Positions 6,317-24,540 of a stretch of 64,000 nt of DNA are shown one piece after another. The stretch lies in assembly GCF_900564155.1 (NCBI RefSeq), contig NZ_LS999839.1, positions 5,515,097 to 5,579,096 of the forward strand, written 5' to 3'. The stretch comes from Pedobacter schmidteae. Lineage in GTDB: Bacteria; Bacteroidota; Bacteroidia; Sphingobacteriales; Sphingobacteriaceae. Positions within the stretch are counted from its first letter, which is position 1, and each line of letters starts with the position of its first letter. The position numbers were made by a program, and so were the translations under genes. Under the pieces are notes generated by a model. The model saw nothing but the letters and a program-made list of their open reading frames with translations, did no database searches and was not told where the DNA came from.

Positions 6317-6943
6317 TTACTGTGGTATATAAACCACATATTTAGTCTCAAAAAACTCCTCTTCAAAATACGCCGAAAGCGGATGTAACTCTGCTTTTAG
6401 GTTCGATTCCTCAATTTCTTCAGCCAGATCGCCACCTTTCAGGTACAAAATTCCGTTCTGAATCGCATTTTTTGATTCCTTGTTAAATTTACCACGTACC
6501 CATGGATAAAAATCAATCAACCGGGTTACTGCTCTGGAAACCACAAAATCATATTTATCAATCACCTGCTCTGCCCGTAAATGACTGGCATCCACATTTT
6601 TCAGTCCCAATGCATGTGCTACTTCAGCAACAACTTTGATTTTCTTTCCAATAGAATCTACCAGATGAAACTCCGTTTCGGGAAACAAAATAGCCAGCGG
6701 AATTCCAGGAAAACCACCTCCCGTACCCACATCCAGTACCTTCTCGCCTGGTTTGAAAGTACAAAATTTAGCAATACCCAGGGAGTGCAAAATGTGGCGT
6801 TCATACAACTCATCAATATCTTTTCTCGAAACCACATTGATTTGAGCATTCCAAAAGTTGTATAAATCATATAGCTGATCAAACTGCTGGATCTGCTGCG
6901 CGGTAAGGTCTTTAAAATATTTCTGTATGAGTGTTGATTTCAT
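6317..6943 (-). CDS. rsmG: 16S rRNA (guanine527-N7)-methyltransferase
   Basis: SAM-dependent methyltransferase that makes m7G527 in 16S rRNA; loss typically gives low-level streptomycin resistance. SAM-binding motif I is VLDVGTGGGFPGIPLAILFP, followed by HLVDSIGKKIKVV; VSRAVTRLIDFYPW is also typical. A longer frame begins at a GTG (6949). I prefer the ATG at 6943 (MKSTLIQKYF) because it overlaps the TGA of the upstream glycosyltransferase gene as ATGA, a classic translational-coupling arrangement. Length is then 208 residues, normal for the family. Confidence 0.95.
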   Translation of the reverse strand: MKSTLIQKYFKDLTAQQIQQFDQLYDLYNFWNAQINVVSRKDIDELYERHILHSLGIAKFCTFKPGEKVLDVGTGGGFPGIPLAILFPETEFHLVDSIGKKIKVVAEVAHALGLKNVDASHLRAEQVIDKYDFVVSRAVTRLIDFYPWVRGKFNKESKNAIQNGILYLKGGDLAEEIEESNLKAELHPLSAYFEEEFFETKYVVYIPQ

Positions 6944-8085
6944 TTCCACTGTACTTTTTTAACAAATATAGAGAGAATGCCATTAAACACTAAAAAAATG
7001 AATAATAGCACATCTAAAACCGGGAACCACCATCTCAAATCGCCATAGTTCAACCGTTTCAGGATCCTCGGATAGATAAAACTTCTGATGACAATACTTA
7101 AACCCAACACCCCTAAAGCCGGATAAAGTGTTGATTTAAAGCACATCATAAGTCCTAATATAACATAAAATAAGAATTGTATAATGATTTGGGCCGACAA
7201 AATAAATTTATGCCTGGGCTTATATAATTTTCCCGCACCAAAATGACGTTTTTTTTGTCGTAAATAACTCCCAAAACTGGTATTAGGCTCGCTCCACACC
7301 TGCGCATCTTTATGGAAACAGATCGCTGTATTCCTTTCCGTTGCATGGGCATTTACAAAAAGATCATCATCGCCCGATGGAATATGCATATGAGCAGCAA
7401 ACCCTTTATTGTTAAAAAACAAGGATTTTTTGTAAGCCATATTCCGGCCTACTCCCATATAAGGCATGCCTTTGATGGCAAATGACAAATAATTTACGGC
7501 CGTAAAAAAAGTTTCAAAACGGATCAGCGCATTTAATAAACCTCTTTTTTTAAGATAAGGAGAATAGCCCAGCAATATTTCGGTATGCTCCTGCTCAGGC
7601 TGCTGCATGCCATGTAACCATTTCGGCGAAGCCGGTACACAATCGGCATCGGTAAATACCAGCCAATCATTTGCCGTGGCTTTTATCCCCATCGTTACAG
7701 CAAATTTTTTCCCGGCAATAAATTTACTTCCTTCATTTACCGTAACCACCTTAAGGTGCTTATATTGTTTGGCAAATGTCTCCAATACCTCCTTCGTTCC
7801 ATCCCAGGACCGGTCGTTGACCACCACAACCTCAAAATCAGGATAATCCTGTTCTAGTACTGCAGGCAAATATCTTTGCAGGTTTTCGGCCTCGTTCCGG
7901 GCGCAAATCACTACACTTAATGGCTTTTTAGCACTTTCGGGCAAGTCATCTATTTTTATGAGCGCCAGTTTAAGATGCACAAATAAGCTAAAATACAGCT
8001 GTACAATAAAGCAAAAAATCAATAGACCGAGCAGGCTATATTCAAGGTACACTAAAAAAGTACCGTTTAAAAAGGTTAATTCCAC
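6940..8085 (-). CDS. Family 2 glycosyltransferase, membrane-bound
   Basis: 381-residue inverting glycosyltransferase of the GT2 family. A membrane segment near residues 10 to 32 precedes a cytosolic GT-A domain with SVVICARNEAENL and VVVVNDRSWDGT (nucleotide-sugar binding), VFTDADC (DxD metal motif) and a QKKRH segment resembling the QxxRW acceptor motif. Two or three further hydrophobic segments fill the C-terminus (about 295 to 375). Such enzymes build lipid-linked or exported glycans; the sugar and acceptor are unknown. The start codon is GTG (8085). It shares an ATGA junction with rsmG, so the pair is cotranscribed although functionally unrelated. Confidence 0.88.
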   Translation of the reverse strand: MELTFLNGTFLVYLEYSLLGLLIFCFIVQLYFSLFVHLKLALIKIDDLPESAKKPLSVVICARNEAENLQRYLPAVLEQDYPDFEVVVVNDRSWDGTKEVLETFAKQYKHLKVVTVNEGSKFIAGKKFAVTMGIKATANDWLVFTDADCVPASPKWLHGMQQPEQEHTEILLGYSPYLKKRGLLNALIRFETFFTAVNYLSFAIKGMPYMGVGRNMAYKKSLFFNNKGFAAHMHIPSGDDDLFVNAHATERNTAICFHKDAQVWSEPNTSFGSYLRQKKRHFGAGKLYKPRHKFILSAQIIIQFLFYVILGLMMCFKSTLYPALGVLGLSIVIRSFIYPRILKRLNYGDLRWWFPVLDVLLFIFLVFNGILSIFVKKVQWK

Positions 8086-8180
8086 GATGTATTTTTGTAA
8101 CCGTCAAATTTCTGATTTTTAATCTGTAATGTTCCTTTATGTTGATAAAAAATTTAGCCTGTTAATAGCTTGTTTTTTGC

Positions 8181-8188
8181 TATTTTTG
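8181..8188 (+). promoter_or_regulatory. Candidate -7 box TATTTTTG for the tgt operon
   Basis: Matches TAnnTTTG, 73 bp before the tgt ATG. No clear -33 TTTG is seen at the usual distance, so the call rests on the -7 box and position alone. Confidence 0.45.
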
Positions 8189-8261
8189 CCGAGATTTTTT
8201 TGAAATCGGGCCGATCCGTTGTTTACACAGCAGCCTTTCAAAAAACAATAAAAAGATAAAG

Positions 8262-9392
8262 ATGAAATTTAATTTACAAGCGAAAGATACACATTCGAAA
8301 GCAAGAGCGGGAACAATTACTACTGACCATGGCGATATACAAACACCTATTTTTATGCCTGTTGGTACCGCAGGAACGGTAAAATCAGTCAACCAGCAAC
8401 AACTTAAAAATGATATCGACGCTAAAATCATCTTAGGAAATACCTATCATTTATACCTGCGACCAGGTCTCGATGTACTGGAACGTGCCGGAGGTTTACA
8501 TCAGTTTATTGGCTGGGACAGACCAATTTTGACCGACAGCGGTGGTTATCAGGTCTATTCTTTAAGCAAAGTGCGCAAAATTAAAGAGGAAGGCGTAACT
8601 TTTCATTCACATATAGATGGCTCCAAACACCTCTTTACGCCAGAATATGCCATGGACATACAGCGTACCATAGGTGCCGACATCATCATGGCATTTGACG
8701 AATGTACGCCATACCCATGCGATTATAAGTATGCGGCAAACTCTATCAACATGACGCACCGCTGGTTAAAACGCTGCTGCGCACGTTTTGATGCCACCGA
8801 ACCCAAATACGGCTTCAGCCAAACCCTGTTCCCTATTGTTCAGGGCTCTGTATATAAAGACCTCAGAATGAAATCTGCCGAATTTATCGCCTCCATGAAC
8901 CGTGAAGGAAATGCCATTGGCGGACTTTCTGTAGGCGAACCTGCCGAAGAAATGTACGGTATGACCGAAGTCGTATGCAATATACTGCCGGAAGAAAAAC
9001 CCCGTTACCTGATGGGTGTGGGTACACCTATCAACATCCTGGAAAACATTGCCTTAGGTGTAGATATGTTTGACTGCGTAATGCCAACCAGAAACGCCAG
9101 AAATGGTATGTTATTTACAAAAAATGGCATCATCAATATCAGCAACAAAAAATGGGCTGATGATTTCTCACCAATTGAGGCCGACAGTGATCTGATTGCC
9201 GACCAGGTTTATTCTAAAGCCTATTTAAGACACCTGATGCATTCAAAAGAAATGCTGGGCGCTCAAATAGCTACCTTACACAACCTGCATTTTTACCTTT
9301 GGCTGGTTAAACAAGCCAGAGAGAAAATCATAAGCGGCGAATTTTACGCCTGGAAAAACAAAATGGTTACTATCTTAGGTAATAAATTATAA
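8262..9392 (+). CDS. tgt: tRNA-guanine transglycosylase (queuosine pathway)
   Basis: Exchanges G34 in the anticodons of Asp, Asn, His and Tyr tRNAs for a queuosine precursor. 376 residues, matching bacterial Tgt. The acid catalyst is D92 in TDSGGYQVYSL and the nucleophile D271 in MFDCVMPTRNARNG. Oddity: residues 283 to 340, where most bacterial Tgt proteins carry the C-x-C-x2-C plus His zinc site, contain no cysteine (EADSDLIADQVYSKAYLRHL replaces the CxCxxC segment), while the flanking YSKAYLRHL and HNLHFYLWLV are conserved. I recall the same loss in flavobacterial homologs, so it is probably a lineage feature and not damage. The stop abuts the ATG of the LptF/G gene with no gap. Confidence 0.95.
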   Translation: MKFNLQAKDTHSKARAGTITTDHGDIQTPIFMPVGTAGTVKSVNQQQLKNDIDAKIILGNTYHLYLRPGLDVLERAGGLHQFIGWDRPILTDSGGYQVYSLSKVRKIKEEGVTFHSHIDGSKHLFTPEYAMDIQRTIGADIIMAFDECTPYPCDYKYAANSINMTHRWLKRCCARFDATEPKYGFSQTLFPIVQGSVYKDLRMKSAEFIASMNREGNAIGGLSVGEPAEEMYGMTEVVCNILPEEKPRYLMGVGTPINILENIALGVDMFDCVMPTRNARNGMLFTKNGIINISNKKWADDFSPIEADSDLIADQVYSKAYLRHLMHSKEMLGAQIATLHNLHFYLWLVKQAREKIISGEFYAWKNKMVTILGNKL

Positions 9393-10496
9393 ATGAACAT
9401 TATCAAAGACAGGATCAAAATTCTCGACTGGTACATCATCAGCAAATACCTGGGGACCTTTTTATATACCCTGACGTTGTTTGTTGTCATCATCATTATT
9501 TTTGACTTATCTGAGAAACTGGATGACTTTTTAAGTGCCAATCTAAGCTTCTGGCAGGTGATATCCTTATATTATGCAGGGTCTATTCCTTATTATGTAA
9601 ACATGTTATCCCCTTTGATCAATTTCATTGCGGTCATCTTTTTCACTGCAAAGATGGCCGATCAGACCGAAATTGTCCCTATTTTAAGTGGTGGAGTTAG
9701 CTTTAACCGCTTTTTAGTCCCCTATTTTATATCCGCATTTATCATATTTGCCGTCAATCTGGCATCCAATTTATACATCCTGCCCTATACCAATCAGCTT
9801 AAAAACAGCTTCGAAAATACCTATGTAAAGAAAAATGATCCGTCCAGCAAAAGTAATATCCACATGAAACTGGATAACCATACTTACATTTTCATGGACA
9901 ATTTTGACAACAAAACTAAGACAGGCACCAGGTTCTCACTCGATAATTTTAAGGGTGATTTACTTACCAAAAAGCTGGTGGCAGACGAAATTAAATGGGA
10001 CTCTTTGAAGCGTTCCTGGAAGCTGATCAACTACTCTGTAAGGGACATAAACGGACTGAAAGAAACCTTTACCAGCGGCTCATCCAAGACCAAAGACACG
10101 GTACTGGACATGCGTCCGGACGACTTTTCGGCCTATGATAATGTGTTCGAAAACCTCACAAACAAGGAGCTTTCCGAGAAGATCAGAAAAGAAAAAATAC
10201 GTGGATCGGGCATCTGGAACGACCTTTTATTTGAACAATATAAGCGCTATTTACACCCTTTATCGGCATTCGTTTTGACCCTTATCGGGGTCGCACTTTC
10301 GTCCAGAAAGGTGCGCGGCGGCGTTGGATTGCCATTGGGAATAGGCATTTTATTAAGCTTTGCCTATATTGTTTTTAACCAATTCGCAAAAATGTTTTCC
10401 ATAAAAGGAGGCATGCCACCGCTGCTGGCAGTGCTTGCACCCACCATTTGCTTCGGTTTACTGGGGTACTACCTGCTTAGAAAAGCACCAAAATAA
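9393..10496 (+). CDS. LptF/LptG family permease (YjgP/YjgQ)
   Basis: 367-residue inner-membrane component of the LptB2FG ABC machine that lifts lipopolysaccharide out of the inner membrane. Three transmembrane helices at the N-terminus (first at LGTFLYTLTLFVVIIIIFDL), a periplasmic beta-jellyroll-like domain in the middle, and three helices at the C-terminus (FVLTLIGVALSSRK, the glycine-rich GLPLGIGILLSFAYIVF, APTICFGLLGYYLL). Bacteroidota usually encode LptF and LptG separately as similar proteins; which one this is cannot be told. The ATG follows directly after the tgt stop and its stop overlaps the next ATG by one base, so the three genes form one operon. Confidence 0.9.
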   Translation: MNIIKDRIKILDWYIISKYLGTFLYTLTLFVVIIIIFDLSEKLDDFLSANLSFWQVISLYYAGSIPYYVNMLSPLINFIAVIFFTAKMADQTEIVPILSGGVSFNRFLVPYFISAFIIFAVNLASNLYILPYTNQLKNSFENTYVKKNDPSSKSNIHMKLDNHTYIFMDNFDNKTKTGTRFSLDNFKGDLLTKKLVADEIKWDSLKRSWKLINYSVRDINGLKETFTSGSSKTKDTVLDMRPDDFSAYDNVFENLTNKELSEKIRKEKIRGSGIWNDLLFEQYKRYLHPLSAFVLTLIGVALSSRKVRGGVGLPLGIGILLSFAYIVFNQFAKMFSIKGGMPPLLAVLAPTICFGLLGYYLLRKAPK

Positions 10497-11386
10497 TGAA
10501 AAACAAAGTCCCAAACTCCAATAAAAACCTGCTGATTCTTCATTTCACAGTATTTATATGGGGGTTTACGGGCATCCTGGGCGCATTAATCTCTATCGAT
10601 GCCGTACAAATGGTATGGTATAGGGTTTTAATTGCCACCCTAACCCTTTTTATCTACTTTAAACTGAGCAAAACCAGCCTTAAAATAACAAAAAAGCAGT
10701 TTTATCAGTTCTTTTTTACAGGCAGTATTGTAGCCTTGCACTGGATCCTTTTCTTCCATGCCATTAAAGTTTCAACGGTTTCTGTTACGCTCGTTTGCCT
10801 GTCTTCCTTTACGCTTTTTACCGCCATATTGGAACCGCTGATCAAAAAACAACGCGTCCAGATTGCCGATATCATCATTGGAATGGTCATCATTTTGGGC
10901 ATTTATCTCATCTTTAAATTCGAATCCAGGTATACCGCAGGCATCATTTTCGGCCTGTCGGCAGCACTCGCTTCCAGTCTTTTTGGCACCATAAATTCTG
11001 TGCTGGTACAAAAAAGTGACGCCCTTGTGATCAGTTTTTATGAGATTGCAGGTGCCTTTATATGGATCACTTTATACCGTTTGGCCGATCATTCTTTGCT
11101 TACAGAACGCTTCAATCTGAGCGCAACCGACTGGCTTTATCTTGGCCTTTTGGGAACAATTTGTACCGCACTTGCCTACGTTGCCGGAGTAGCTGTGATG
11201 CGTACCATCTCGGCTTTCAGGGTGGCACTCATCACCAATCTTGAGCCCGTATACGGCATCCTTCTGGCCTTCATTTTCTTCGGATCAAAGGAGAGCATGT
11301 CGGTCGGATTTTACCTTGGAGCAGTCATTATTCTGGCTGCTGTATTCCTATATCCGATCTACAAAAAACACAAAAATACCTACTAA
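10496..11386 (+). CDS. EamA/DMT-family transporter
   Basis: 296-residue inner-membrane protein of the drug/metabolite transporter superfamily with about ten hydrophobic helices arranged as two EamA repeats. Repeat 1 starts LLILHFTVFIWGFTGILGALI; repeat 2 starts about residue 150 with the IFGLSAALASSLFGTI segment. The second repeat ends with the typical NLEPVYGILLAFIFFG motif. Substrates in this family include amino acids, nucleotides and metabolites; none can be assigned here. It overlaps the LptF/G stop by one base and is the last gene of the tgt operon. Confidence 0.88.
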   Translation: MKNKVPNSNKNLLILHFTVFIWGFTGILGALISIDAVQMVWYRVLIATLTLFIYFKLSKTSLKITKKQFYQFFFTGSIVALHWILFFHAIKVSTVSVTLVCLSSFTLFTAILEPLIKKQRVQIADIIIGMVIILGIYLIFKFESRYTAGIIFGLSAALASSLFGTINSVLVQKSDALVISFYEIAGAFIWITLYRLADHSLLTERFNLSATDWLYLGLLGTICTALAYVAGVAVMRTISAFRVALITNLEPVYGILLAFIFFGSKESMSVGFYLGAVIILAAVFLYPIYKKHKNTY

Positions 11387-11843
11387 TTTTTATGCCCAAC
11401 CCATGGGGTAGGGGAGTAAAAAAACGCGGGTGCCAGGTGTCATTTTAAACGGCAAAAACAGGCGTATAAACCAGGCAAAAAAACAGGTAAAAACAGCAGC
11501 AAAAAAGCTCAGAAAAACATATTTTCAGCGCTCAAAAACAACCTGAAAAAATTGCGTTTCCGTATACAGCTTTAAAATCCGGAGCATAAATTTAATTTTA
11601 TTTACGAGGTAAATAGTGTACCTTAATGCCATAATTCAATTCAGCAAAGAGAAAGCAGCAAAACTTCCTGAAAACAGTCCAACTGCACTAAAAACAAAGC
11701 AAAAAAACTTAAAACACCACAAAACATAAAAACAAATAAACAACTGTATATCAATAAATAAAACAAACTCAATTAAAATAAAAAATCAATTAAAAACAGA
11801 CATAAAATTTCTAAAATACTAATATTTTTAGCACATCTGATAA
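11387..11843. other. 457-bp A-rich, strand-asymmetric intergenic region
   Basis: The plus strand from about 11430 to 11815 is dominated by A with interspersed C and very little G or T: runs such as CAAAAACAGGCG and GCAGCAAAACTTCC, with repeated AAAAC/AACAG words. No hairpin with a T-tract, no ORF with family similarity and no tRNA shape was seen. A box like TATTTTTA near 11824 lies close to the next ATG and could be a weak -7 element. Confidence 0.5.
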
Positions 11844-14654
11844 ATGAATCAAAATAAACTATATAAATCACTGATAATCAAAATAAAATCAACACTAATA
11901 TTAAGTTTAATTTCACATTCTGTTTTTTCGCAGATTTTTAACGAGGAACAAAACCCACTTAGTGTAAAATGGAGACAGATAAACAGCTCGGGCTTTAAAG
12001 TGATCTATCCGGCCGAACTGGAAAAAGAAGCGCAAAGAATGGCCAACACGCTACCCCATATTTACCCTCATGTAGGCGGCAGTCTGGGCATGAAAAAAAC
12101 GTCCATTCCTTTGCTCCTTCAGAACCAGGGCGTGATCGCAAATGGCTTCGTTCAACTGGGCCCAAAAAAGTCTGAATTTTACACCACCCCTCCGCAGCAA
12201 TTCGACAGTCAGGACTGGCTCAATAACCTGGCCGTTCACGAGCTTCGCCATGTGGCCCAGTTCGACAAACTGACCGGAGGAAAGGCACACCCATTTCCCG
12301 AATTGGTATACTTCGCCTGGTTCGGAGCAAGCCTCCCCATTTGGTTTTTTGAAGGCGATGCGGTAACCACCGAAACCGCCCTTACCAATGCCGGTCGCGG
12401 AAGGCAACCTTCCTGGATCATGCCCTTTCGTGCCAGCCTGCTGGAAGGAAAAAAAATCTCGTACAGCAAGGCCAGCTTCGGATCAAACAAAGACATCACC
12501 CCGGGGTATTATCAGCTCGGCTACCTGATGTCTTCCAACATCAGAACTCAGCATGGGAAAAATATATTCGACGATGTACTGACCGATATCCGCAAGCGCC
12601 CCCTTCGCCTCTACCCTTTTTCAAACAGTCTGAAAAAACTGACCGGCAAAGGAAGTCACGAATGGTTCAGACAAACCACTGCTCTTCTGGAAAAAAAATG
12701 GAGCGAACAAGCACAAGCCGATCCCGCCGAAAATTACATCTCGCTAACCAGGCCCGCAAAATACGCCACCAATTATTTTTTACCGGTCCGCCTGAACAGC
12801 AACAGCATTTTAACTTTAAAGCAAAGTAAAGCCGAGATCTCCCACCTCATACTGCTGGACAGCAACAAACAGGAAAAACACTTGCTGAACATCGGCTACC
12901 AGGAGCAACCCTGGTTTAGCTACGCCAATGGAAAAATAGTTTGGGACGAAGTAAGATACGATCCGCGATACAGACAACGCAGCTACAATGTAATTTGCAG
13001 TTACCAGCTAGAAACAAAAAAAGTTAAAAAGCTCAGTTCAAAATCCAGGCTCTTCGCTCCCTCACTTTCGGCCGACGGAAAAAAAATTATTGCTGTAAAA
13101 ATTGAACTCAACAACCAGTGCAATCTGGTTGAGCTGGACGCGCAAACCGGAGCCATCCTGTACACCTATCCAAATCCAAAAAATCAGATACTGCAAACAC
13201 CGGCCTTCAGCGAAAGCGGAAACCAGGTAGTGTACATCGGCGTAACTGAAAAAGGCAAGGCCATGTACATCACCAACAGAGCAGGCCAAACCGAGGAACT
13301 AATAGCTCCAGGTCAACAGCAATTGACAAGGCCCACCTTCATTAACCAGCAAATCGCATTTAACGCGCATTACAGCGGAGTTGACAACATTTACAACATA
13401 GATATCAAAACAAAAAAGATAAGCGCTCTGAGCCACGCAAAATACGGCGGATTTAATGCATCATTTTCCAAAGCGGCAAATTCCCTCATTTTTAACAATT
13501 ACAGAGAAACCGGATACGACATTGCCGAAATCCCGATAAATCCCGAACAGCCGGCAAAAAACAATTTCGTTTATTTTGGAGCTGCCGCCGAGCAACAGGA
13601 ACATACCGGAAATGTATTTCGTAAAATTCCCGACAGCGTGTACACCTCCAAACCCTACCACGCATCAGGCAACCTGATTGACGTACATAGCATCACACCG
13701 GTGATTGAAGACGAATACCGGTTTGGCCTGCAACTCAACTCCGACAACCTGCTCAATACCTTCAGCACTTTTGCCGGCGCAGAATATTATCGCGATCTGA
13801 ACAGATTTGAATACAACGCCGGTTTTGTACTGAAAAGTTTTTACCCGGTTATCAGTGCCACCTATCGCAACAGACCGCGCCGAACCTTTTACAACACCAA
13901 CAAGGGAATAGCGCAGGGCGATTGGCGGGAAAACAATTTTCAACTTCAGGCATTGTTGCCCATCAACCTGAATAGCCTGGGCGACACCTACAGCTTCTCG
14001 TTAAAAGCTGCAACCAGCTATACGCACAGGTACATGGGAGAAAACATGCCGGCCAACTACATCACCAGTCTAAAATTTCCAATGGAATATGGATTTGGCT
14101 TCGCCCACGGCATGCGTCAGGCCGATCGCGACATTGCCCCAAAATGGGCGCAAACCTTACGTTTTACCTACCTGCATCAACCGTTTGACAATAGACTGGA
14201 TGGCGAGCTTTTTGCAGCAGAAGCATTTTTCTATTTCCCCGGCCTGTTAAGAAACCACTCTTTCACAGCCAATTTTAACTATCAACACGCCAGTGGTGTA
14301 AGAAGATTTGACAACGAAGTAAATGCTGTATACGGATACAACAACATCAGGGCCCGTAATTTTCTAAAAAATACGCTCCTGTTCAACTATAGATTTCCCT
14401 TCGCCTTCCCCGACGCCGAACTGGGACCTTTGGCCTACATCAGAAACTTAAGGGGCGGATTGTTTTGCCATTATGAAAACCTGGGAATAGACACCAACCT
14501 GGGCGAACCCAAAACCTATGGCTTTGAACTACGCAGCAGCCTGAACGTTTTACGTTACCAGCCTGTAGTCGATTTTGGAACAAGATTTGTCTTCGTCAAC
14601 AAAATTTACAACCAAAACCCTATATTAGAATTAATTTTAAACTACAGCTTTTAA
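11844..14654 (+). CDS. Outer-membrane protein with gluzincin (HExxH...E) domain, beta-propeller-like middle and barrel-like end
   Basis: 936-residue exported protein with a signal peptide (hydrophobic STLILSLISHSVFSQ). Residues 40 to 290 look like a gluzincin metallopeptidase: the zinc motif HELRH is H132 to H136, and the third ligand is probably E170 in WFFEGDAVTTET, 34 residues later, the spacing seen in peptidase MA-like families. Residues about 300 to 600 carry TolB/WD-like repeats (SRLFAPSLSADGKKI, TPAFSESGNQVVY). The last 300 or so residues alternate short amphipathic strands with aromatic ends and finish in a C-terminal Phe, as in outer-membrane barrels. Proteins of this kind are recurrent but poorly described in Bacteroidota. 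The substrate is unknown and proteolysis is inference from the motif. The AATTTTCACC leader before LapA suggests a shared transcript. Confidence 0.75.
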   Translation: MNQNKLYKSLIIKIKSTLILSLISHSVFSQIFNEEQNPLSVKWRQINSSGFKVIYPAELEKEAQRMANTLPHIYPHVGGSLGMKKTSIPLLLQNQGVIANGFVQLGPKKSEFYTTPPQQFDSQDWLNNLAVHELRHVAQFDKLTGGKAHPFPELVYFAWFGASLPIWFFEGDAVTTETALTNAGRGRQPSWIMPFRASLLEGKKISYSKASFGSNKDITPGYYQLGYLMSSNIRTQHGKNIFDDVLTDIRKRPLRLYPFSNSLKKLTGKGSHEWFRQTTALLEKKWSEQAQADPAENYISLTRPAKYATNYFLPVRLNSNSILTLKQSKAEISHLILLDSNKQEKHLLNIGYQEQPWFSYANGKIVWDEVRYDPRYRQRSYNVICSYQLETKKVKKLSSKSRLFAPSLSADGKKIIAVKIELNNQCNLVELDAQTGAILYTYPNPKNQILQTPAFSESGNQVVYIGVTEKGKAMYITNRAGQTEELIAPGQQQLTRPTFINQQIAFNAHYSGVDNIYNIDIKTKKISALSHAKYGGFNASFSKAANSLIFNNYRETGYDIAEIPINPEQPAKNNFVYFGAAAEQQEHTGNVFRKIPDSVYTSKPYHASGNLIDVHSITPVIEDEYRFGLQLNSDNLLNTFSTFAGAEYYRDLNRFEYNAGFVLKSFYPVISATYRNRPRRTFYNTNKGIAQGDWRENNFQLQALLPINLNSLGDTYSFSLKAATSYTHRYMGENMPANYITSLKFPMEYGFGFAHGMRQADRDIAPKWAQTLRFTYLHQPFDNRLDGELFAAEAFFYFPGLLRNHSFTANFNYQHASGVRRFDNEVNAVYGYNNIRARNFLKNTLLFNYRFPFAFPDAELGPLAYIRNLRGGLFCHYENLGIDTNLGEPKTYGFELRSSLNVLRYQPVVDFGTRFVFVNKIYNQNPILELILNYSF

Positions 14655-14677
14655 TTTTCACCTCAGCCCTTCAAATT

Positions 14678-14950
14678 ATGCGCACCAAAACCATCTTCAT
14701 CATCATTTTTACTGTACTGATCACCGTGTTTCTAATGATCAATACCGATGCTGTGGAATTTGATTTCATTTTCGTCAAAATGAACATCTCCAAACTCCTG
14801 GTAGTTGGTGTATGTACTTTTATAGGATTTATATTGGGCTATTGGGCCGGACGTCCTAAAACAACCGTAAGCACATACGACCGGGAAATAGATGGCCACG
14901 ACAGCAACAAAAGCAACCTGAGCGACGAAGACCGCGATTACATCAGATAA
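14678..14950 (+). CDS. Small two-helix membrane protein, LapA/DUF1049-like
   Basis: 90 residues with two transmembrane helices (about 4 to 22 and 38 to 58) separated by the segment NTDAVEFDFIFVKMNISKLLVV. That pattern, an Asn before an FxF-rich loop and then a Gly-rich helix, is typical of the LapA (DUF1049) family. In enterobacteria LapA works with LapB to control LPS synthesis; here no lapB lies adjacent, so the role is unknown. The tail is acidic and polar (DGHDSNKSNLSDEDRD). It lies 23 bp after the gluzincin gene and ends at a strong terminator. Confidence 0.72.
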   Translation: MRTKTIFIIIFTVLITVFLMINTDAVEFDFIFVKMNISKLLVVGVCTFIGFILGYWAGRPKTTVSTYDREIDGHDSNKSNLSDEDRDYIR

Positions 14951-14990
14951 TTTGCTTACACCTCATGGCATCTCAAACGAATTGCATAAA

Positions 14991-15024
14991 AAAGGCCTGC
15001 ATAAAAAAAATGCAGGCCTTTTTC
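14991..15024. terminator. Bidirectional intrinsic terminator, LapA-like / metZ
   Basis: Arms AAAGGCCTGCA and TGCAGGCCTTT (11 bp, perfect) around a nine-base A-rich loop, followed by T residues. It serves the two convergent transcripts. Confidence 0.9.
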
Positions 15025-15045
15025 ATATCATCAGAAAAACAATGG

Positions 15046-16212
15046 CTATGCTAAAGCTTGTTTAATGTCACCAAGAATATCGTCAATATGCTCTAAACCG
15101 ATAGACAAGCGAACAGTCCCTTGCTCTATCCCTACCTCGAGGCGCTCCTCTTCGGTCAGTTTTGAATGCGTACTCGTAGCCGGATGCGTAGCAATAGAAC
15201 GGGTATCCCCCAGATTGGCAGAAATAGAGAACATTTTCAGCTTGTTCATAAAGTCGCTTGCAGCAGCCACTCCACCATCAATTACCAAGGTCACAATCCC
15301 TCCACCCTGCTTCATTTGTTTTTTAGCAATTTCATATTGTGGATGAGACGATAAAAAAGGATACATCACTTTTTTAATACGGGCATGACTTTCTAAAAAT
15401 TCAGCAACTTTCAACGCATTCTCACAATGCCTGTCCATACGCACTGCCAGGGTTTCCAAACTTTTGGACAACAACCAGGCATTAAATGGCGACATTGCAG
15501 GGCCGCTATGTCTGGCAAAACCTTCAATTTCTTTAATCAATTTTTCAGAACCCAGAATAACCCCACCTAAGGTACGTCCCTGTCCATCGATAAATTTAGT
15601 GGCCGAATGAATAGAGATATCAGCGCCCAATTTTATGGGCTGCTGCAAATAAGGTGTGGCAAAACAATTGTCTACCACCAGCAAAAGATTGTGTTGTTTG
15701 GCCAGTTTTGCCAACCATTCCAGGTCAATGATATCGATCCCCGGATTAGAAGGCGTCTCCACAAAAATCATTTTTGTGTTGGGCTGAATCCCCTGCTCCC
15801 ATTGCTCCGGCTTATCCAGGTCGGCATAGGTATAAGTAATTCCCCATTTCGAAAATACATTATTCAGCAGCTGGTGGGTAGACCCAAAAACAGAGCGGCT
15901 AGACAATACATGATCGCCCGATTTTAAAAAAGTTGCAAAGGTGGTAAATATTGCCGCCATCCCCGACGCTGTAACCCAACCCGTTTCCGAGCCCTCCAAT
16001 CTGGACATTTTATCAATCAGTTCGGTCGTATTTGGATTGGCATAACGGCTGTAAACATTACCTTCCTTTTCATTGGCAAAAAGCGCACGCATATCCTCTG
16101 CATCATCAAATTTATAACTTGAGGTCAGGTACAATGGTACTGAATGTTCTTTAAACTGTGTTCTGTCGGCTTGCAAACGTATAGCCAGGGTTTCAAAATT
16201 CTCTTCTTGCAT
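15046..16212 (-). CDS. metZ: O-succinylhomoserine sulfhydrylase-type PLP enzyme
   Basis: 388-residue fold I PLP enzyme of the Cys/Met metabolism family (MetB/MetC/MetZ/MGL). The PLP lysine is K206 in SIHSATKFIDGQGR, and YSRYANPN plus SGMAAIFT are the usual phosphate and substrate motifs. The KFIDGQGRTLGGV segment resembles O-succinylhomoserine sulfhydrylases (MetZ) more than cystathionine gamma-synthases. Such an enzyme makes homocysteine directly from sulfide. It could also be a methionine gamma-lyase or cystathionine gamma-lyase; sequence alone does not settle this. The OsmC gene ends six bases upstream on the same strand, so the two share a transcript. Confidence 0.85.
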   Translation of the reverse strand: MQEENFETLAIRLQADRTQFKEHSVPLYLTSSYKFDDAEDMRALFANEKEGNVYSRYANPNTTELIDKMSRLEGSETGWVTASGMAAIFTTFATFLKSGDHVLSSRSVFGSTHQLLNNVFSKWGITYTYADLDKPEQWEQGIQPNTKMIFVETPSNPGIDIIDLEWLAKLAKQHNLLLVVDNCFATPYLQQPIKLGADISIHSATKFIDGQGRTLGGVILGSEKLIKEIEGFARHSGPAMSPFNAWLLSKSLETLAVRMDRHCENALKVAEFLESHARIKKVMYPFLSSHPQYEIAKKQMKQGGGIVTLVIDGGVAAASDFMNKLKMFSISANLGDTRSIATHPATSTHSKLTEEERLEVGIEQGTVRLSIGLEHIDDILGDIKQALA

Positions 16213-16217
16213 TTTAG

Positions 16218-16634
16218 TTATGAATGAATGGTATAGGTAAAATTAATGGTGGCCGAACGGCCCAGAATATTCGACACCGAACAATACTTATCGAAAGTCA
16301 TGGCCAGTGCACGTTCCACTTTTGGTACGCTCAAAGCGCCAAAAAGATCAAAATGAATATCAATTACATCAAATATCGGCGGCATCTCCTCATCTTTCCT
16401 GGTCGCCTTAATGGCTATTTTAACATCATCAAGTGGCTCCTTTTGTTTGGTCAGCACATTAACCATATCTATACCACTGCAACCTCCCAAACCAACTAAA
16501 AGCATTTCCATTGGCCTGAACCCTTTGCCTTCGCCCCCAATAGCTGGTTTGGCATCCAGTTCAACAGTAAAACCACTCGAATTTTCTGCTTCAAAATTAA
16601 ATTTACCGCTTTTACGTATTAAATTAATCTCCAT
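16218..16634 (-). CDS. OsmC-family peroxiredoxin-like protein
   Basis: 138-residue OsmC/Ohr-fold protein; members reduce organic hydroperoxides using two cysteines. Both are present: C52 in GLGGCSGIDMV and C118 in FDKYCSVSNIL. The motif FRPMEMLLVGLGGC is characteristic. A longer frame would begin at a TTG (16652); I chose the ATG at 16634 (MEINLIRKSGKF) because family alignment begins there. It is first in an operon with metZ, which would link thiol chemistry and sulfur assimilation, though the link is only positional. Confidence 0.9.
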   Translation of the reverse strand: MEINLIRKSGKFNFEAENSSGFTVELDAKPAIGGEGKGFRPMEMLLVGLGGCSGIDMVNVLTKQKEPLDDVKIAIKATRKDEEMPPIFDVIDIHFDLFGALSVPKVERALAMTFDKYCSVSNILGRSATINFTYTIHS

Positions 16635-16671
16635 ATGATGTTCTATTTGCAAATATCCGGCCCCGGGAGAC

Positions 16672-17475
16672 TCAGACGTGATAAAAAACTTTATTCTTTT
16701 TTTCCAGCTCCGGTAAATTCACCTGCTGATCAAAAATGGCAAAAACACTTGACCCGCTGCCGCTCATTAAAGCAAACAATGCGCCCGACTGGTAAAGCTG
16801 TGATTTGACCTGCTCAATCTCCGGATATTTTGAAAAAACAGAAGTTTCAAAATCATTTTCCAGATTCGATCTCCATTCTTTCACAGGCAAATGTATTAAA
16901 TCTTTTACCGATCTACTAGGAATTATAGGCTTTATTCCGGCATAAGCATCGGCCGTAGATACGTGTACAGGCGGTTTTACCAAAACCAACTCATATTTTG
17001 ACAAATCTATTGCGATTGAATTGAACTCATCGCCCCTACCAAAAGCATAAACCGGTTTATTTTCGATGAAGAAAGCGCAATCGGCCCCCAGCGGCTTTAC
17101 AACATCCTGCATCGCTTTTACCGACAGGCCCAGCTTAAACTTATCATTAACCAATTTAACCAGGTGTGCGGCATCGGAAGAGCCCCCACCCAGCCCGGCA
17201 CCTACCGGAATATTCTTGAGCAGGGTAATTTGCTGAGGCGGTAAGTCAAAATCTTTTTGCAGCGCATTAAAGGCTTTCAGGCAAATGTTATCAGCTGTAC
17301 CTCCAGGTACATCAATTCCTTTTACCACACAAGTGGTTTCCGAAGCATCTGTAATTTCAACAACATCGTTGATCCTGATGGGATAAAAAACCGTTTCGAT
17401 GTCGTGATAACCATCCGATCTTTTTTGGGTAACGTTTAAACCAAGGTTGATCTTGGCATTGGCAAAAGCAAGCAT
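16672..17475 (-). CDS. ispE: 4-diphosphocytidyl-2-C-methyl-D-erythritol kinase
   Basis: GHMP-family kinase of the MEP route to isoprenoid precursors; phosphorylates CDP-methylerythritol. The ATP-binding glycine loop PVGAGLGGGSSDAAH lies at residues 90 to 104, the N-terminal substrate lysine in ANAKINLGLNV, and the third GHMP motif LMSGSGSSVFAIF near the C-terminus. At 267 residues it is slightly shorter than the E. coli enzyme (283), which is normal for Bacteroidota. It is transcribed leftward from its own candidate promoter at 17502 to 17531. Confidence 0.95.
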   Translation of the reverse strand: MLAFANAKINLGLNVTQKRSDGYHDIETVFYPIRINDVVEITDASETTCVVKGIDVPGGTADNICLKAFNALQKDFDLPPQQITLLKNIPVGAGLGGGSSDAAHLVKLVNDKFKLGLSVKAMQDVVKPLGADCAFFIENKPVYAFGRGDEFNSIAIDLSKYELVLVKPPVHVSTADAYAGIKPIIPSRSVKDLIHLPVKEWRSNLENDFETSVFSKYPEIEQVKSQLYQSGALFALMSGSGSSVFAIFDQQVNLPELEKKNKVFYHV

Positions 17476-17501
17476 TTATGTTGCGTTTAATGTTTCTGCC
17501 A

Positions 17502-17531
17502 CAAACTTAATAAAAAGAGAACAGACCCAAA
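17502..17531 (-). promoter_or_regulatory. Candidate ispE promoter (TTTG, 18 bp, TAAGTTTG)
   Basis: On the minus strand TTTG (17531 to 17528) is followed after 18 bp by TAAGTTTG (17509 to 17502), matching both Bacteroidota promoter boxes, 27 bases before the ATG. Confidence 0.55.
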
Positions 17532-17535
17532 ATCA

Positions 17536-18231
17536 TTACTGATCATCTACCATTACACCAAATACCTCGTCAATATTTAAACGAAAGCCAGGCAAAATAT
17601 CGGAAACAAACTCGGCACCCCCCTCATATGGCCTTCCGGCCACAAAAACCCCATCCTTATTTAACACATACTTTAAAAAACACCGCTCTTCAGGTTGCAC
17701 AATCCAGTATTCCCGAACCCCATAGCTTTCGTAAATTTCAAACTTATTTTCCAATTCCTTACGACTATTGCCCGGCGACAATACTTCGACAACAATATCA
17801 GGCGCACCAATACAACCCCGCTTATCCAGTTTTTTTCGATCGCAGATGACACAAATATCAGGTTGCAACACCGTATAAACATTTTTGTCTGCCTTCGACT
17901 GATCAGAAAAACGAACATCAAACGGCGCAACAAATGCCTCACACGATTGTCGTTTTAAATAAAAGTGTATATCCGCATGAATCTGGCCTACTAGTCGCTG
18001 GTGGTTTACCGATGGTGCCCCCATCTCAAAAATCTTCCCTTTGATCAGTTCTACCCGTTCCTCAAATTTCCAACACAAATAATTCGCATACGAATAAGTA
18101 CCCGAAACATCTACCTCCGCTACTTTACTAATCACGGGTTCTTTTTCGACATACGGTTTCACCTTACCAGCCACCTTAGGCTCCTTTTGTTTACGACCTT
18201 TTGTCTGTGTATTCTTTTTTATAATTACCAT
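17536..18231 (-). CDS. Uma2-family (DUF820) putative nuclease, copy 1
   Basis: 231 residues. A basic N-terminal tail of about 30 residues (Lys-rich) precedes a Uma2/DUF820 domain, a PD-(D/E)xK nuclease-like fold. Motifs visible: QPDICVICDRKKLD, GAPDIVVEVLSPGN (acidic active-site residues) and YESYGVREYWIVQPEE. These genes are abundant in cyanobacteria and some Bacteroidota and no biological role is firmly established. It is the downstream member of a tandem pair with the neighbour at 18296 to 18964, with clear similarity over the whole length, including the shared EPVISKVAE.DVSGTYSYANYL segment. Confidence 0.85.
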   Translation of the reverse strand: MVIIKKNTQTKGRKQKEPKVAGKVKPYVEKEPVISKVAEVDVSGTYSYANYLCWKFEERVELIKGKIFEMGAPSVNHQRLVGQIHADIHFYLKRQSCEAFVAPFDVRFSDQSKADKNVYTVLQPDICVICDRKKLDKRGCIGAPDIVVEVLSPGNSRKELENKFEIYESYGVREYWIVQPEERCFLKYVLNKDGVFVAGRPYEGGAEFVSDILPGFRLNIDEVFGVMVDDQ

Positions 18232-18295
18232 GTCTATTCTTAAAAATTTCCTAAAAACTATTTATGCCAATAAAATTTACACCTCCCGAATTTTA

Positions 18296-18964
18296 TCAAT
18301 CCTCAAACAGGTCGCCCACATTTAACCTAAAGCCCGGCAAAACATCCGATACAAATTCGGTCCCGCCATCATAGGGTTTTCCCGCTACAAAGACCCCTTC
18401 AATGTTGCGCACATATTTCAGCAAATACTGGAGTTCAGGATCAACAATCCAGTACTCCCGTACACCGTAAGCTTCATAAGTAGCAAATTTGTATTCCAGC
18501 TCTTTCTTTTGATTACCCGGTGACAAAATCTCGACAACAATATCTGGCGGTCCTACACAGCCCCTGCTGTCAATTTTTGCCTGGTCGCAAACCACACTGA
18601 TATCAGGCTGTAAAACCGTATAAATCGAATCGTACCGTTTAGATGCATCCGGGAAACGCACATCAAAGGGTGCCGGATAGACTTTACAACGCTGGTGCTT
18701 CAGAAAAAAACACAGTTCGCCAGCAAGTCGGCCTGAAACCAGCTGATGAAATGGAGCAGGTGCAGCCATCTCAAAAATCTTCCCTTTGATTAGCTCCAAT
18801 CTCTCTGCAAACTCCCAACGCAAATAATTCGCATACGAATAAGTACCCGAAACATCAATCTCAGCCACTTTGCTGATCACAGGCTCCTTTTTAACATACG
18901 GCTTATACCGCTTCTTCGGCCGTCCCTTTGTCAAGTAATCCTTTTGCTTTTCGCCAACAACCAT
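18296..18964 (-). CDS. Uma2-family (DUF820) putative nuclease, copy 2
   Basis: About 222 residues from the chosen ATG (18964, MVVGEKQKDYL); the longer frame to 19024 adds an unlikely leader. Same domain as copy 1: QPDISVVCDQAKID, GPPDIVVEILSPGN, YEAYGVREYWIVDPE, and the same basic N-terminal tail followed by VSGTYSYANYL. The two genes are tandem and codirectional, 64 bp apart, so they arose by duplication and probably share the promoter upstream of this copy. Function unknown; nuclease activity is inferred from the fold. Confidence 0.84.
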   Translation of the reverse strand: MVVGEKQKDYLTKGRPKKRYKPYVKKEPVISKVAEIDVSGTYSYANYLRWEFAERLELIKGKIFEMAAPAPFHQLVSGRLAGELCFFLKHQRCKVYPAPFDVRFPDASKRYDSIYTVLQPDISVVCDQAKIDSRGCVGPPDIVVEILSPGNQKKELEYKFATYEAYGVREYWIVDPELQYLLKYVRNIEGVFVAGKPYDGGTEFVSDVLPGFRLNVGDLFED

Positions 18965-19345
18965 ATTGATTAATTTATTTTCACAAACAGAAACACAATT
19001 AACCAAAAATATTATTTTATACAATTAATAAAAATAATTTATTATGTATTAATAATAAAAATTTTGAGGAAATAAACCAAAAATTAGTTGCAGCCTATAT
19101 CCGAACGATGCGCCCTATAGGGTTTTTCTTCACAATGTGAGCGATTCTTCACGCCTTATTCACACCTCCTTCACACAAAACCCACAAAAGGGTACTTTTT
19201 TGTGAAGGATATGTGTAGCATGTGTGAACCATGTGAGGAAAAGTCCTTAGCAACAACAAATTCTTTACATGCTTACTCAGTTTTCAGTCTTCACTTCTCA
19301 AAAAAAACAGCTATATTGCTGTTATCTAACTTAATACTCTAAAAA
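18965..19345. other. 381-bp divergent spacer with TTCACA/TGTGAA words and a hairpin
   Basis: Separates Uma2 copy 2 (minus) from the DUF6266 gene (plus). A TATTTTTG box on the minus strand (19011 to 19004) may drive the Uma2 pair. Between 19128 and 19240 the words TTCACA and TGTGAA recur in both orientations: an 11-bp palindrome TCACAATGTGA at 19130 to 19140, TTCACAC at 19159 and 19170, TGTGAAGG at 19201, GTGTGAA at 19222. The copies at 19168 to 19180 and 19196 to 19208 can pair as a stem. I do not recognise the element. Confidence 0.6.
19004..19011 (-). promoter_or_regulatory. Candidate -7 box TATTTTTG for the Uma2 pair
   Basis: TAnnTTTG match on the minus strand, 40 bp before the ATG of Uma2 copy 2. 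Confidence 0.4.
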
Positions 19346-19984
19346 ATGGGAAGAATTAAAAAAGGAATCCTTGGAGGATTCTCCGGAAAGGTGGGTACCG
19401 TAATTGGTGCCAGCTGGCGCGGCATCGATTATATGCGCGCACTGCCAAAAAAAAGCAATAAACCTGCAACAGCAAAGCAACTGAGCCAGCAAAACAAAAT
19501 GACACTATTGAGGGGATTTTTACTGGCCCTGGATGAAATTATTGAACCCTGCTTTCAGAACAATAAAAAGCATACGCCAATGAATGATGCCCTTTCTTAT
19601 AATCTGAAAAATAGTATCGCAGGAAATTACCCAACGCAAAGTATTAACTTTCCTCAGTTTCTATACAGCAAAGGAGATTTGATGAGCTGCTGGGCACCCA
19701 AAGCAATCTCGACAACAGCACATACGGTCGATTTCAGTTGGGAAAATGGAAGTTTTACTCCCCTTCGGGCGGCAGGTGATCAGGTAACTCTGGTGGTGTA
19801 TAGTCCGGCGACAAATAATTTTTGCCATCTGACGAATGCAGCACTAAGGGCTGATCAACAAGCTCGATTGATTATTCCTGAAGATTTTAGCGGACATGTA
19901 TTGCATTGCTACATCAGTTTCTATTCGGCAGACCGGAATTTGGCTTCTACCAATGAATATTTAGGCGAAATTGAGGCGCTGTAG
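19346..19984 (+). CDS. DUF6266 family protein
   Basis: 212 residues of a Bacteroidota-restricted family of unknown function. The conserved N-terminus is Gly-rich and basic (KKGILGGFSGKVGTVIGASW, then RGIDYMRALPKK), followed by KPATAKQLSQQNKMTLLRGF, which is the strongest family signature. The remainder (about 100 to 212) looks beta-rich, with WENGSFTPLRAAGDQVTLVVY and a final strand pair. No signal peptide or membrane helix is visible. It is monocistronic, preceded by the repeat-bearing spacer described for 18965 to 19345. Relatives are common in Pedobacter and Mucilaginibacter. Confidence 0.8.
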   Translation: MGRIKKGILGGFSGKVGTVIGASWRGIDYMRALPKKSNKPATAKQLSQQNKMTLLRGFLLALDEIIEPCFQNNKKHTPMNDALSYNLKNSIAGNYPTQSINFPQFLYSKGDLMSCWAPKAISTTAHTVDFSWENGSFTPLRAAGDQVTLVVYSPATNNFCHLTNAALRADQQARLIIPEDFSGHVLHCYISFYSADRNLASTNEYLGEIEAL

Positions 19985-20041
19985 CAGCAAATTACCTGAT
20001 GTAAATTTGTAGGGCCGGCTATTGGGCTACCTGTTTTTTAT

Positions 20042-20065
20042 GTACACTTTTAATGTGTACTTTTG
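20042..20065 (+). promoter_or_regulatory. thyA promoter region: palindrome overlapping -7 box
   Basis: GTACAC (20042 to 20047) and GTGTAC (20055 to 20060) form a 6-bp inverted repeat whose right arm overlaps TACTTTTG (20058 to 20065), a TAnnTTTG-type -7 box 18 bp before the thyA ATG. The overlap suggests an operator, but this is unproven. Confidence 0.45.
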
Positions 20066-20083
20066 CCGCTATAAGTATCCTTT

Positions 20084-20878
20084 ATGAAGCAATATTTAGA
20101 CTTAATGCAGCATGTGCTGGATCATGGCACGCAAAAGCACGACCGTACAGGCACCGGAACCATTAGCGTATTTGGCTACCAGATGCGTTTTAACCTTCAG
20201 GAAGGCTTTCCTATGGTGACGACCAAAAAACTGCACTTAAAATCCATCATTCACGAACTGATCTGGTTTTTGAGCGGGGATACCAATATCAAATATTTAA
20301 AAGACAATGGTGTAAAAATATGGGACGAATGGGCAGATGAAAATGGCGACCTCGGGCCTGTGTACGGCTCGCAATGGCGCTCCTGGCCTAAGCCTGATGG
20401 TAGCCATATCGATCAGATTGCGCAAATCGTAAACACCATCAAAAACAATCCCGATTCCAGAAGGATCATCGTTTCGGCGTGGAATGTAGCCGAGGTAGAA
20501 AATATGGCGCTCCCACCTTGTCACGCCTTTTTCCAGTTTTATGTAGCCGATGGCAAATTGAGCTGCCAGCTGTATCAGCGCAGTGCAGATATATTTTTAG
20601 GCGTACCATTTAACATTGCCTCTTATGCCCTGCTCACTATGATGGTAGCACAGGTATGCGGCCTGCAGTATGGCGATTTTATCCATACCCTTGGCGATGC
20701 CCATTTATACAACAACCATATTGAACAGGCTAAACTGCAACTGAGCCGCGATCCTAAAAAACTACCGGTGATGCACCTCAACCCGGAGGTAAAGGATATT
20801 TTGAACTTTAAGTTTGAAGATTTTACCCTGACCGGTTATGATGCCCATCCGCATATTAAAGGAGCTGTAGCCGTATGA
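20084..20878 (+). CDS. thyA: Thymidylate synthase
   Basis: Makes dTMP from dUMP using methylenetetrahydrofolate, giving dihydrofolate. 264 residues, the same length as E. coli ThyA. The catalytic cysteine is C146 in [12 protein letters not shown]; other motifs are [40 protein letters not shown] and the C-terminal IKGAVAV. Its stop overlaps the folA ATG (ATGA), so the product dihydrofolate is made by one gene and recycled by the other from a single transcript. Confidence 0.98.
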
Positions 20879-21360
20879 TCGTATCCTTAGTAGTGGCCAT
20901 TGCCGAAAACAATGCCATAGGAAAAGACAACCAACTGCTGTGGCACCTGCCGGCCGACCTGAAACATTTTAAACAAATCACTACTGGTCATACCATTATT
21001 ATGGGCCGTAAAACCTACGATTCCATTGGACGGCCCCTACCCAACAGGCGCAATATAGTGATCAGCAGAACTGCGGGACTACAGATACCTGGCGTTGAAG
21101 TAACGGGAAGTATAGCGGATGCCCTGGCACTTTGTGCAGAAGAAACTGAGGTGTTTATTATTGGCGGCGCCGAAATCTACAAATCAAGTATGGCACTTAC
21201 TGATCGGATTTACCTGACCAGGGTACATCAATCTTATGCCGCCGATGCTTTTTTCCCCGAAATAGATGCAAACCTATGGGAAGAAACTGATATCGAAAAG
21301 CATCTTCCGGATGAAAAAAATAAGGTAGCTTACACTTTTTCGACACTTTTGCGCAAATAG
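20875..21360 (+). CDS. folA: Dihydrofolate reductase
   Basis: NADPH-dependent reduction of dihydrofolate to tetrahydrofolate, the target of trimethoprim. 161 residues, typical of chromosomal DHFR. Motifs: [19 protein letters not shown], catalytic acid D28 in [25 protein letters not shown], and FIIGGAEIY. The four-base overlap with thyA shows translational coupling. Confidence 0.97.
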
Positions 21361-21414
21361 TTGAGGCCCTATAATAAAAAATCAATAAGGTAGCCTATTA
21401 ATTAAAAAAATAAT

Positions 21415-21422
21415 TAGATTTG
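21415..21422 (+). promoter_or_regulatory. Candidate -7 box TAGATTTG for secDF
   Basis: Matches TAnnTTTG, 52 bp before the secDF ATG in an AT-rich spacer. No obvious -33 box. Confidence 0.45.
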
Positions 21423-21473
21423 CCGACTTGTTAAAAAAATATATAGCATATATAGACTAATAATTACAAACAA

Positions 21474-24446: not shown

Positions 24447-24478
24447 ATACATTTTAAGTATTACATACTTATGATAAT

Positions 24479-24508
24479 TAAAGGCATCCTTTTTGGGATG
24501 CCTTTTGT
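24479..24508 (+). terminator. Intrinsic terminator after secDF
   Basis: Arms AAGGCATCC (24481 to 24489) and GGATGCCTT (24496 to 24504), six-base loop, T-run after. It overlaps the extended upstream reading frame of the next gene, which supports the later start at 24541. Confidence 0.9.
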
Positions 24509-24540
24509 TGTTATTTATATATTTACTGAAACCCAATATT

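Follow-up and report, generated by a model that had tools for sequence, protein, structure and literature searches.

A single gene of Pedobacter schmidteae appears to unite an enzyme, a propeller and an outer-membrane anchor in one polypeptide. It lies on the forward strand, as do all features of the gene described below, at positions 11844..14654 of a stretch of 64,000 nucleotides (contig NZ_LS999839.1 of assembly GCF_900564155.1, positions 5,515,097 to 5,579,096), which is referred to in its entirety as the window, and encodes 936 amino acids comprising a signal peptide, a gluzincin-type peptidase domain, a TolB-like propeller and a 16-strand barrel. This open reading frame (ORF) is real and conserved, and its product (the window protein) is an apparently uncharacterised outer-membrane peptidase candidate. 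The best explanation of the whole, to which we give an even chance, is a zinc peptidase of the outer membrane that is anchored by its barrel, assisted by its propeller and acts on envelope proteins from the periplasmic side.

Layout of the chain

An AlphaFold2 model of the whole chain, built on 62 sequences, has a mean predicted local distance difference test score (pLDDT) of 90.7 and a predicted template modelling score (pTM) of 0.87, and comprises a signal helix (residues 8-26), an alpha/beta domain (~43-292), a propeller (~309-564), a linker and 16 long strands (614-935). The signal peptide (residues 1-29; 11844..11930) is probably cleaved before Q30, in keeping with the Bacteroidetes Q-rule, which places Q at +1 (PMC10653852); Q occupies this column in 35 of the 36 rows of alignment A1, which has a gap here in its last row, and in 55 of the 62 rows of A2 (both alignments are described below). 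The linker (569-613; 13548..13682) is predicted to be ordered (pLDDT 90-92 over blocks spanning 571-610) and contains a single short helix (580-586), with no long pore helix predicted. At E values up to 1, Pfam returned only Gmad1 and VID27_PH and NCBIfam only TolB and Dpp5, all below their cut-offs and the latter two within the propeller; the peptidase and barrel parts were matched by no model of either database. Dpp5 (E 0.0023), the sole peptidase-named match, covers propeller residues 384-532, and M48 peptidase models were absent from both sets of matches.

The peptidase domain and its putative zinc site

The peptidase domain (residues 36-300; 11949..12743) is delineated by a model of the domain alone, by its structural neighbours and by a profile match to Peptidase_MA_2 proteins. 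It contains HELRH (132-136; 12237..12251), which would provide the zinc ligands H132 and H136 and the general base E133, and WFFEGDAV (167-174; 12342..12365), in which E170 (12351-12353) is the proposed third ligand. A first-pass annotation of the window, made from the sequence alone, had placed HELRH and E170 at these residues, and both positions and the 34-residue spacing from H136 to E170 are borne out. HEXXH together with EXXA is a sign of gluzincins (PMC8134430), and E170-G-D-A173 is such an EXXA motif. In the model, HELRH sits in a helix spanning residues 125-144 and the E170 motif in another spanning 166-180. When the window protein was shuffled 20,000 times with its composition kept, HExxH arose in 2.0% of cases and HExxH followed 28-38 residues later by EGxA in none.

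Conservation of the site is quoted from A1, whose 36 rows came from whole-protein search without any selection by motif. They are the window protein and sequences from 35 of the 63 further loci L002-L064; near-duplicates, a double and ORFs that the first-ATG rule had shortened were dropped. Rows of A2 to A4 were found by motif patterns, and they are therefore not used for statements of motif invariance; A2 holds 62 rows, namely the window protein and 61 of 80 kept loci, with 5 truncated or shortened sequences and 14 near-duplicates dropped. The other alignments comprise 24/30 (A5), 19/33 (A6), 20 plus a paralogue (A7), 20 (A8), 22/24 (A9) and 16/18 (A10 and A11) sequences. The consensus HExRH...EGDAVxxET...GRG is kept in every row of A1, where H132, E133, R135, H136, Q139, P165, E170, G171, D172, A173 and V174 are invariant, as are E177, T178 and G184-G186 of a family signature that runs from E177-T178 to GRGR at 184-187 (12372..12404). 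Y223 (12510..12512), likewise invariant, is a candidate for a transition-state tyrosine. Among loci L001-L064, which are among the best-scoring places and 63 of which are distinct (the window gene being one of them), HExxH is present in 63 of the 64 ORFs as read from their first ATG, and in the last it lies upstream of that codon.

Modelled alone, residues 36-300 reach a pLDDT of 89.9. Foldseek matched this model to peptidases of the M9, M1 and M61 families and the like, with collagenase T scoring best (E 5.1e-5), and in structural comparison with VIA the closest neighbour was lugdulysin (M30; Z 14.1, root-mean-square deviation (rmsd) 5.3, 233 residues aligned), with M1 and M9 enzymes next at Z ~12; across all three families 210-238 of the 265 residues were aligned. 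Among the matches listed (50 of 474 chains with Z >= 2), all were M30, M1 or M9 enzymes or a TFIID chain, which we take to be the inactive, M1-like TAF2. The gluzincin-type peptidase domain proposed by the first-pass annotation is thus supported, and a model lacking a peptidase fold, which that annotation had named as a refutation, was not obtained; the EXXA glutamate is a candidate third zinc ligand at the level of sequence and profile.

Propeller and barrel

The second domain, a TolB-like beta-propeller (residues 301-568; 12744..13547), had also been anticipated, and the prediction held: model residues 318-568 superpose on TolB structures with a Z of 21.4 and an rmsd of 2.9 over 238 residues (VIA), so that the predicted model has a TolB-type propeller fold. 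The NCBIfam TolB profile matches the window protein at E 7e-12 and 45 bits, far under its curated cut-off of 343. Propellers fill the matches listed in a fold search with the whole chain. The 50 matches listed from a library of viral structures were mostly proteins of propeller, kelch or BTB type or ones that are uncharacterised or unnamed, and none of those listed covered the whole chain convincingly.

The presence of a C-terminal barrel on the same chain is likewise supported by the model. It occupies residues 614-936 (13683..14651) and ends in F, as do 25 of the 36 rows of A1; its 16 long strands (614-935), counted from the DSSP line with one 3-residue strand omitted, equal the number found in Omp85 barrels. 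A long loop between strands 11 and 12 (817-842; 14292..14369), which we take to be the place of Omp85 loop L6, bears YGY at 830-832 (14331-14339), where 18 of the 36 rows of A1 have RG, and strand 13 carries F874-x-H876 (14463..14471), which reads F-x-D in many relatives. In Omp85 proteins a lid lock is formed by (V/I)RG(Y/F) at the tip of loop 6, salt-bridged to (F/G)xDxG of strand 13 (PMC4490367). Across A2 the lock arginine is found in 29 of 62 rows, always accompanied by the strand-13 aspartate (29/29), with the aspartate alone in 13 rows and Y and H at the two positions in 17, the window protein included; these are counts of sequences, and the change to Y and H may have been one event. 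No hits were obtained when the PDB was searched by sequence with the barrel profile, and the Pfam Omp85 model matched neither the window protein (E up to 1) nor 36 members of the family (E up to 0.1). The likeness of the window barrel to Omp85 is suggestive only, and we read the barrel as Omp85-derived, with the lock lost in the lineage of the window protein.

Distribution of the family

Of 36 genomes of the genus, among them that of the window, whole-protein search gave one match in each of 35; the genome in which the family is missing is 78% complete, and one of the genus hits spans only residues 573-936. Across 395 genomes of the phylum, 159 had a match at E <= 0.001, the weaker of which include distant propeller-bearing relatives. 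A motif-based scan of named genomes gave at least 572 confirmed places, 80 of which were kept, with members in Pedobacter, Sphingobacterium, Adhaeribacter, Larkinella and others, and in metagenome-assembled genomes (MAGs) labelled Calditrichaceae, Ignavibacteriales, Neomarinimicrobiota and Chlorobiota. A further member lies on a MAG labelled Wenzhouxiangella, a proteobacterial name, and is possibly a binning error. No family match was found in the plasmid collection searched. Mean column identity is 52% in the peptidase part and 33% in the barrel, in rows whose selection by motif favours the former. Pfam searches of 36 members (E up to 0.1) gave propeller-type matches such as DPPIV_N and no peptidase or barrel families, and NCBIfam searches of two relatives yielded a single weak HExxH-peptidase signal, flagellinolysin at E 0.0094.

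Two further types of relative were recognised. The Pfam model Peptidase_MA_2 (PF13485) matches neither the window protein (E up to 1) nor the 36 members (E up to 0.1), and it did not find the window gene when run on the window's own genome, so that kinship with this family has profile comparison as its sole basis: the window peptidase profile matches Peptidase_MA_2 proteins at E 1.6e-7, in an alignment that pairs their HExxH and EG motifs. A set of 20 ORFs selected for Peptidase_MA_2 was joined by a paralogue from the window's own genome; all 21 match both Peptidase_MA_2 and PD40 (E <= 0.001), and 8 of them also match Omp85; separately, 12 ORFs in 6 of 13 genomes have Peptidase_MA_2 and Omp85 matches in one frame, some under cut-off. 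These proteins, found in other Bacteroidota, possess the same HExxH...EG site and propeller as the window family, but they mostly read HELVH and EGxAEY where the window family has HExRH and EGDAVxxET...GRGR, and Pfam recognises their peptidase and not that of the window protein. The first-pass annotation had been unable to match the architecture to any known protein, a view that these relatives do not sustain. The best PDB hits of the Peptidase_MA_2 profile (E 0.11) were dismissed.

The window family can be aligned over 819 columns with the profile of the Peptidase_MA_2 type (E 1.3e-33) and over 906 columns with that of the third, EGIAV type (E 1.1e-63), so that all three appear to be branches of a single peptidase-propeller-barrel superfamily. 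It is through the peptidase and the propeller that the window and Peptidase_MA_2 types are linked, their barrels being only weakly alike. Barrel profiles of the window and EGIAV types match at E 1.2e-14, and Peptidase_MA_2-type barrels match Omp85 at E 4.3e-20; since the EGIAV barrel matches Omp85 only at E 0.034 and the Peptidase_MA_2 type at E 0.51, it provides no bridge to Omp85. The pattern RG[YFDE] occurs in 12/19 Omp85, 15/20 Peptidase_MA_2-type and 2/16 EGIAV-type barrels, and FxDxG (or FxEAG) in 14, 20 and 1 of the same sets.

The window's own genome carries a distant peptidase-propeller protein in a second gene, at about 5016384-5019578, which encodes 1065 amino acids with HELVH...WMIEG and PD40 repeats. 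It matched Peptidase_MA_2 at E 1.6e-8 and 36.2 bits, over the cut-off, and scored 32.3 against a cut-off of 32.4 in another scan; no Omp85 match was found in its Pfam scan. At one locus of the Peptidase_MA_2 type in another genome (L240, 2964400-2969800), the frame with Peptidase_MA_2 and Omp85 matches is reported as 1530 amino acids long, and the longest ATG-started ORF there is 1078.

Comparison with known systems

TolB has the propeller fold in common with the window protein (Z 21.4) and possesses neither a peptidase nor a barrel. The nearest working analogy for the proposed role is BepA, a periplasmic zinc metallopeptidase with no propeller and no barrel of its own. This M48 enzyme of E. 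coli promotes or degrades LptD, probably on the barrel-assembly machinery (BAM) (PMC8423444), and TolB is a periplasmic component of Tol-Pal (PMC4104836). As in the patatin-like Omp85 protein PlpD, the enzyme domain of the window protein lies N-terminal to the barrel; PlpD differs in having a lipolytic domain and one POTRA domain (PMC4104836).

The closest kinds in print are the 'WD40-Omp85' and 'Metallo' Omp85 subfamilies described in 2014 (PMC4104836), which likewise tell against the claim of an unmatched architecture. In the WD40-Omp85 subfamily a TolB-like propeller precedes an Omp85-type barrel, a make-up that the paper likens to a fusion of BamA with BamB, and the window protein also has its propeller before its barrel. 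The main text of that paper nowhere contains the words 'peptidase', 'HEXXH' or 'zinc', whereas the window family has a gluzincin domain, and the window barrel differs in having neither a Pfam Omp85 match nor the lid-lock Arg and Asp. Judged by the main text, the Peptidase_MA_2 and PD40 proteins, 8 of 21 with Omp85, may or may not belong to this subfamily.

PF00149, which we take to be a calcineurin-like phosphoesterase and not a gluzincin, is absent from the window protein's Pfam matches (E up to 1). It is the domain that defines the 'Metallo' Omp85 proteins, for which periplasmic proteolytic quality control or, if exported, a role as virulence factor was proposed, the same two faces that are weighed here for the window protein; a propeller is not mentioned for them in section 10 of the paper (PMC4104836). 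It is their PF00149 domain that leads this section to call them metalloproteases. A protease borne on an Omp85 barrel has thus already been proposed in print, for another domain. In the parts of PMC4104836 compared, no protein is described that combines a gluzincin with a propeller, and a literature search with partial coverage of open-licence papers found no description of a gluzincin-propeller-barrel protein. One paper in which gluzincin, WD40 and Omp85 occur together (PMC8134430) was set aside; in the passages compared, its gluzincin Gcp16 and its WD40 proteins are separate proteins.

Gene neighbourhood

Starting 23 bases past the stop codon, an ORF on the plus strand (14678..14950) encodes a LapA-like membrane protein of 90 amino acids (Pfam LapA_dom, E 2.8e-4, under cut-off). 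Similar ORFs occur in 33 of the 80 kept loci, all Pedobacter-like, and the gene is possibly co-transcribed with the window gene, a positional association. The neighbourhood held in common with the window is found mainly among Pedobacter-like loci. A LptF/LptG-like neighbour in 35 of the 80 loci fits a resident gene. Pfam matches among the 14 ORFs in 6940-25866 (window gene omitted) include LptF/LptG, EamA, TGT, Cys/Met metabolism, GHMP kinase, OsmC, thymidylate synthase and SecDF. At the 45 non-Pedobacter loci the commonest neighbours listed are MgtE (11), a PGK-like gene (9, named by eye) and a pseudouridine synthase (7), so that no functional hint emerges. An exception is an S49-peptidase-like gene near 6 of these 45, all in Sphingobacterium or Parapedobacter (L101:10154-11920, Pfam E 2.8e-83; similar ORFs in L095, L100, L102, L105 and L107). 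Also present in the window are two adjacent ORFs of Uma2 type (putative endonucleases; 17536-18231 and 18296-19024), apparently a tandem pair, and a DUF6266 protein (19346-19984; Pfam E 2.4e-37).

Proposed mechanism and alternatives

From the conserved site, the predicted folds and the family obtained here, we infer zinc binding, proteolysis, topology, substrate and role as follows. The chain would be exported by Sec via its signal peptide, cleaved according to the Q-rule and anchored in the outer membrane by its 16-strand barrel, which is probably Omp85-like by descent. The propeller would dock on or beside the barrel and probably takes part in selecting or holding clients, while the N-terminal gluzincin domain would hold zinc by H132, H136 and E170 and hydrolyse peptide bonds, E133 acting as the general base. 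We consider it most likely that the soluble part faces the periplasm. There the enzyme may trim or remove outer-membrane proteins or lipoproteins that are immature or have been misassembled, much as BepA does at BAM, yet tethered to a barrel of its own. The proposed zinc peptidase, anchored in the outer membrane, would thus serve the quality control or processing of envelope proteins.

A periplasmic face, favoured because the strand count is even and the soluble part N-terminal, is our simpler guess than the surface protease of the first-pass annotation. Exposure of the peptidase part at the cell surface is nonetheless a live, if unlikely, rival because the bulk of Bacteroidota BAM, including its six-bladed propeller subunit BamI, is extracellular (PMC12578637). 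PlpD offers a precedent, a surface virulence factor is the alternative printed for 'Metallo' Omp85 (PMC4104836), and the 45-residue linker could span a pore. Yet BamI is a separate subunit and not an N-terminal extension of the barrel, the linker is predicted to form just its one short helix, and an even-stranded barrel with an N-terminal soluble part would reach the periplasm with no export step. It is very unlikely that the protein is a non-proteolytic assembly factor, a BamA-BamB-like fusion whose gluzincin fold merely binds clients, even though the description of WD40-Omp85 in such terms (PMC4104836) and the TFIID chain among the structural neighbours lend it some colour: if the fold served for binding alone, some members should have lost E133 or one of the ligands, whereas the gluzincin-site residues and several nearby are invariant in A1. 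The least probable of the explanations weighed here is a nutritional peptidase that trims peptides or proteins for uptake at the outer membrane. The window's genome has 64 TonB-barrel matches, and aminopeptidases and collagenases are among the nearest folds, but Pfam found no TonB-dependent receptor or SusD-like family among the 14 ORFs in 6940-25866, and the 13 neighbour clusters listed for non-Pedobacter loci include, by eye, no TonB receptor.

Several observations weigh against a periplasmic, barrel-anchored zinc peptidase. The domain is mostly helical, and for such domains VIA warns about Z scores in the range obtained here (12-14), the pLDDT drops to 73-76 over residues 141-160, between the histidines and E170, and a PDB sequence search with the peptidase profile returned a single chance-level hit, a zinc-finger protein (E 0.88), which was dismissed. 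The match of the window barrel to Omp85 is weak (hhalign, 33.5%, E 4.4e-4; TonB-barrel control 0.9%, E 0.064), rising to 49.3% (E 1.7e-4; control 1.7%, E 0.029) with EGIAV-type barrels added, and its match to the Peptidase_MA_2-type barrel is weaker still (3.3%, E 0.013). Y830 and H876 stand in place of the lid-lock Arg and Asp, and the window protein is for that reason not filed as an Omp85 protein. Outside the genus the family is patchy, with 2 of 23 other genomes of the class and 38 strong matches (E <= 8.8e-51) in the 395 phylum genomes, and no functional neighbour common beyond Pedobacter-like genomes was found, so that quality control has no support from context apart from the S49-peptidase-like gene at the 6 Sphingobacterium or Parapedobacter loci.

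Implications

A bolder extension, which we consider quite unlikely, is that the BamA-like barrel, the BamB/TolB-like propeller and the BepA-like gluzincin form one device, in which a client engaged by the barrel would be passed by the propeller to the peptidase, assembly or destruction of outer-membrane proteins would be decided within a single molecule, and all printed WD40-Omp85 proteins would be peptidases and not only assembly platforms. Family members from across the Bacteroidota, and from MAGs bearing the labels of neighbouring phyla, carry an invariant peptidase site on an outer-membrane barrel, unmatched by Pfam or NCBIfam in the searches made here. If active, the window protein would represent a peptidase resident in the outer membrane of a phylum with distinct outer-membrane assembly machinery, as described in 2025 (PMC12578637, PMC12611786), and the propeller-Omp85 proteins would gain a testable chemistry; the family could let bacteria cut proteins right at the outer membrane.

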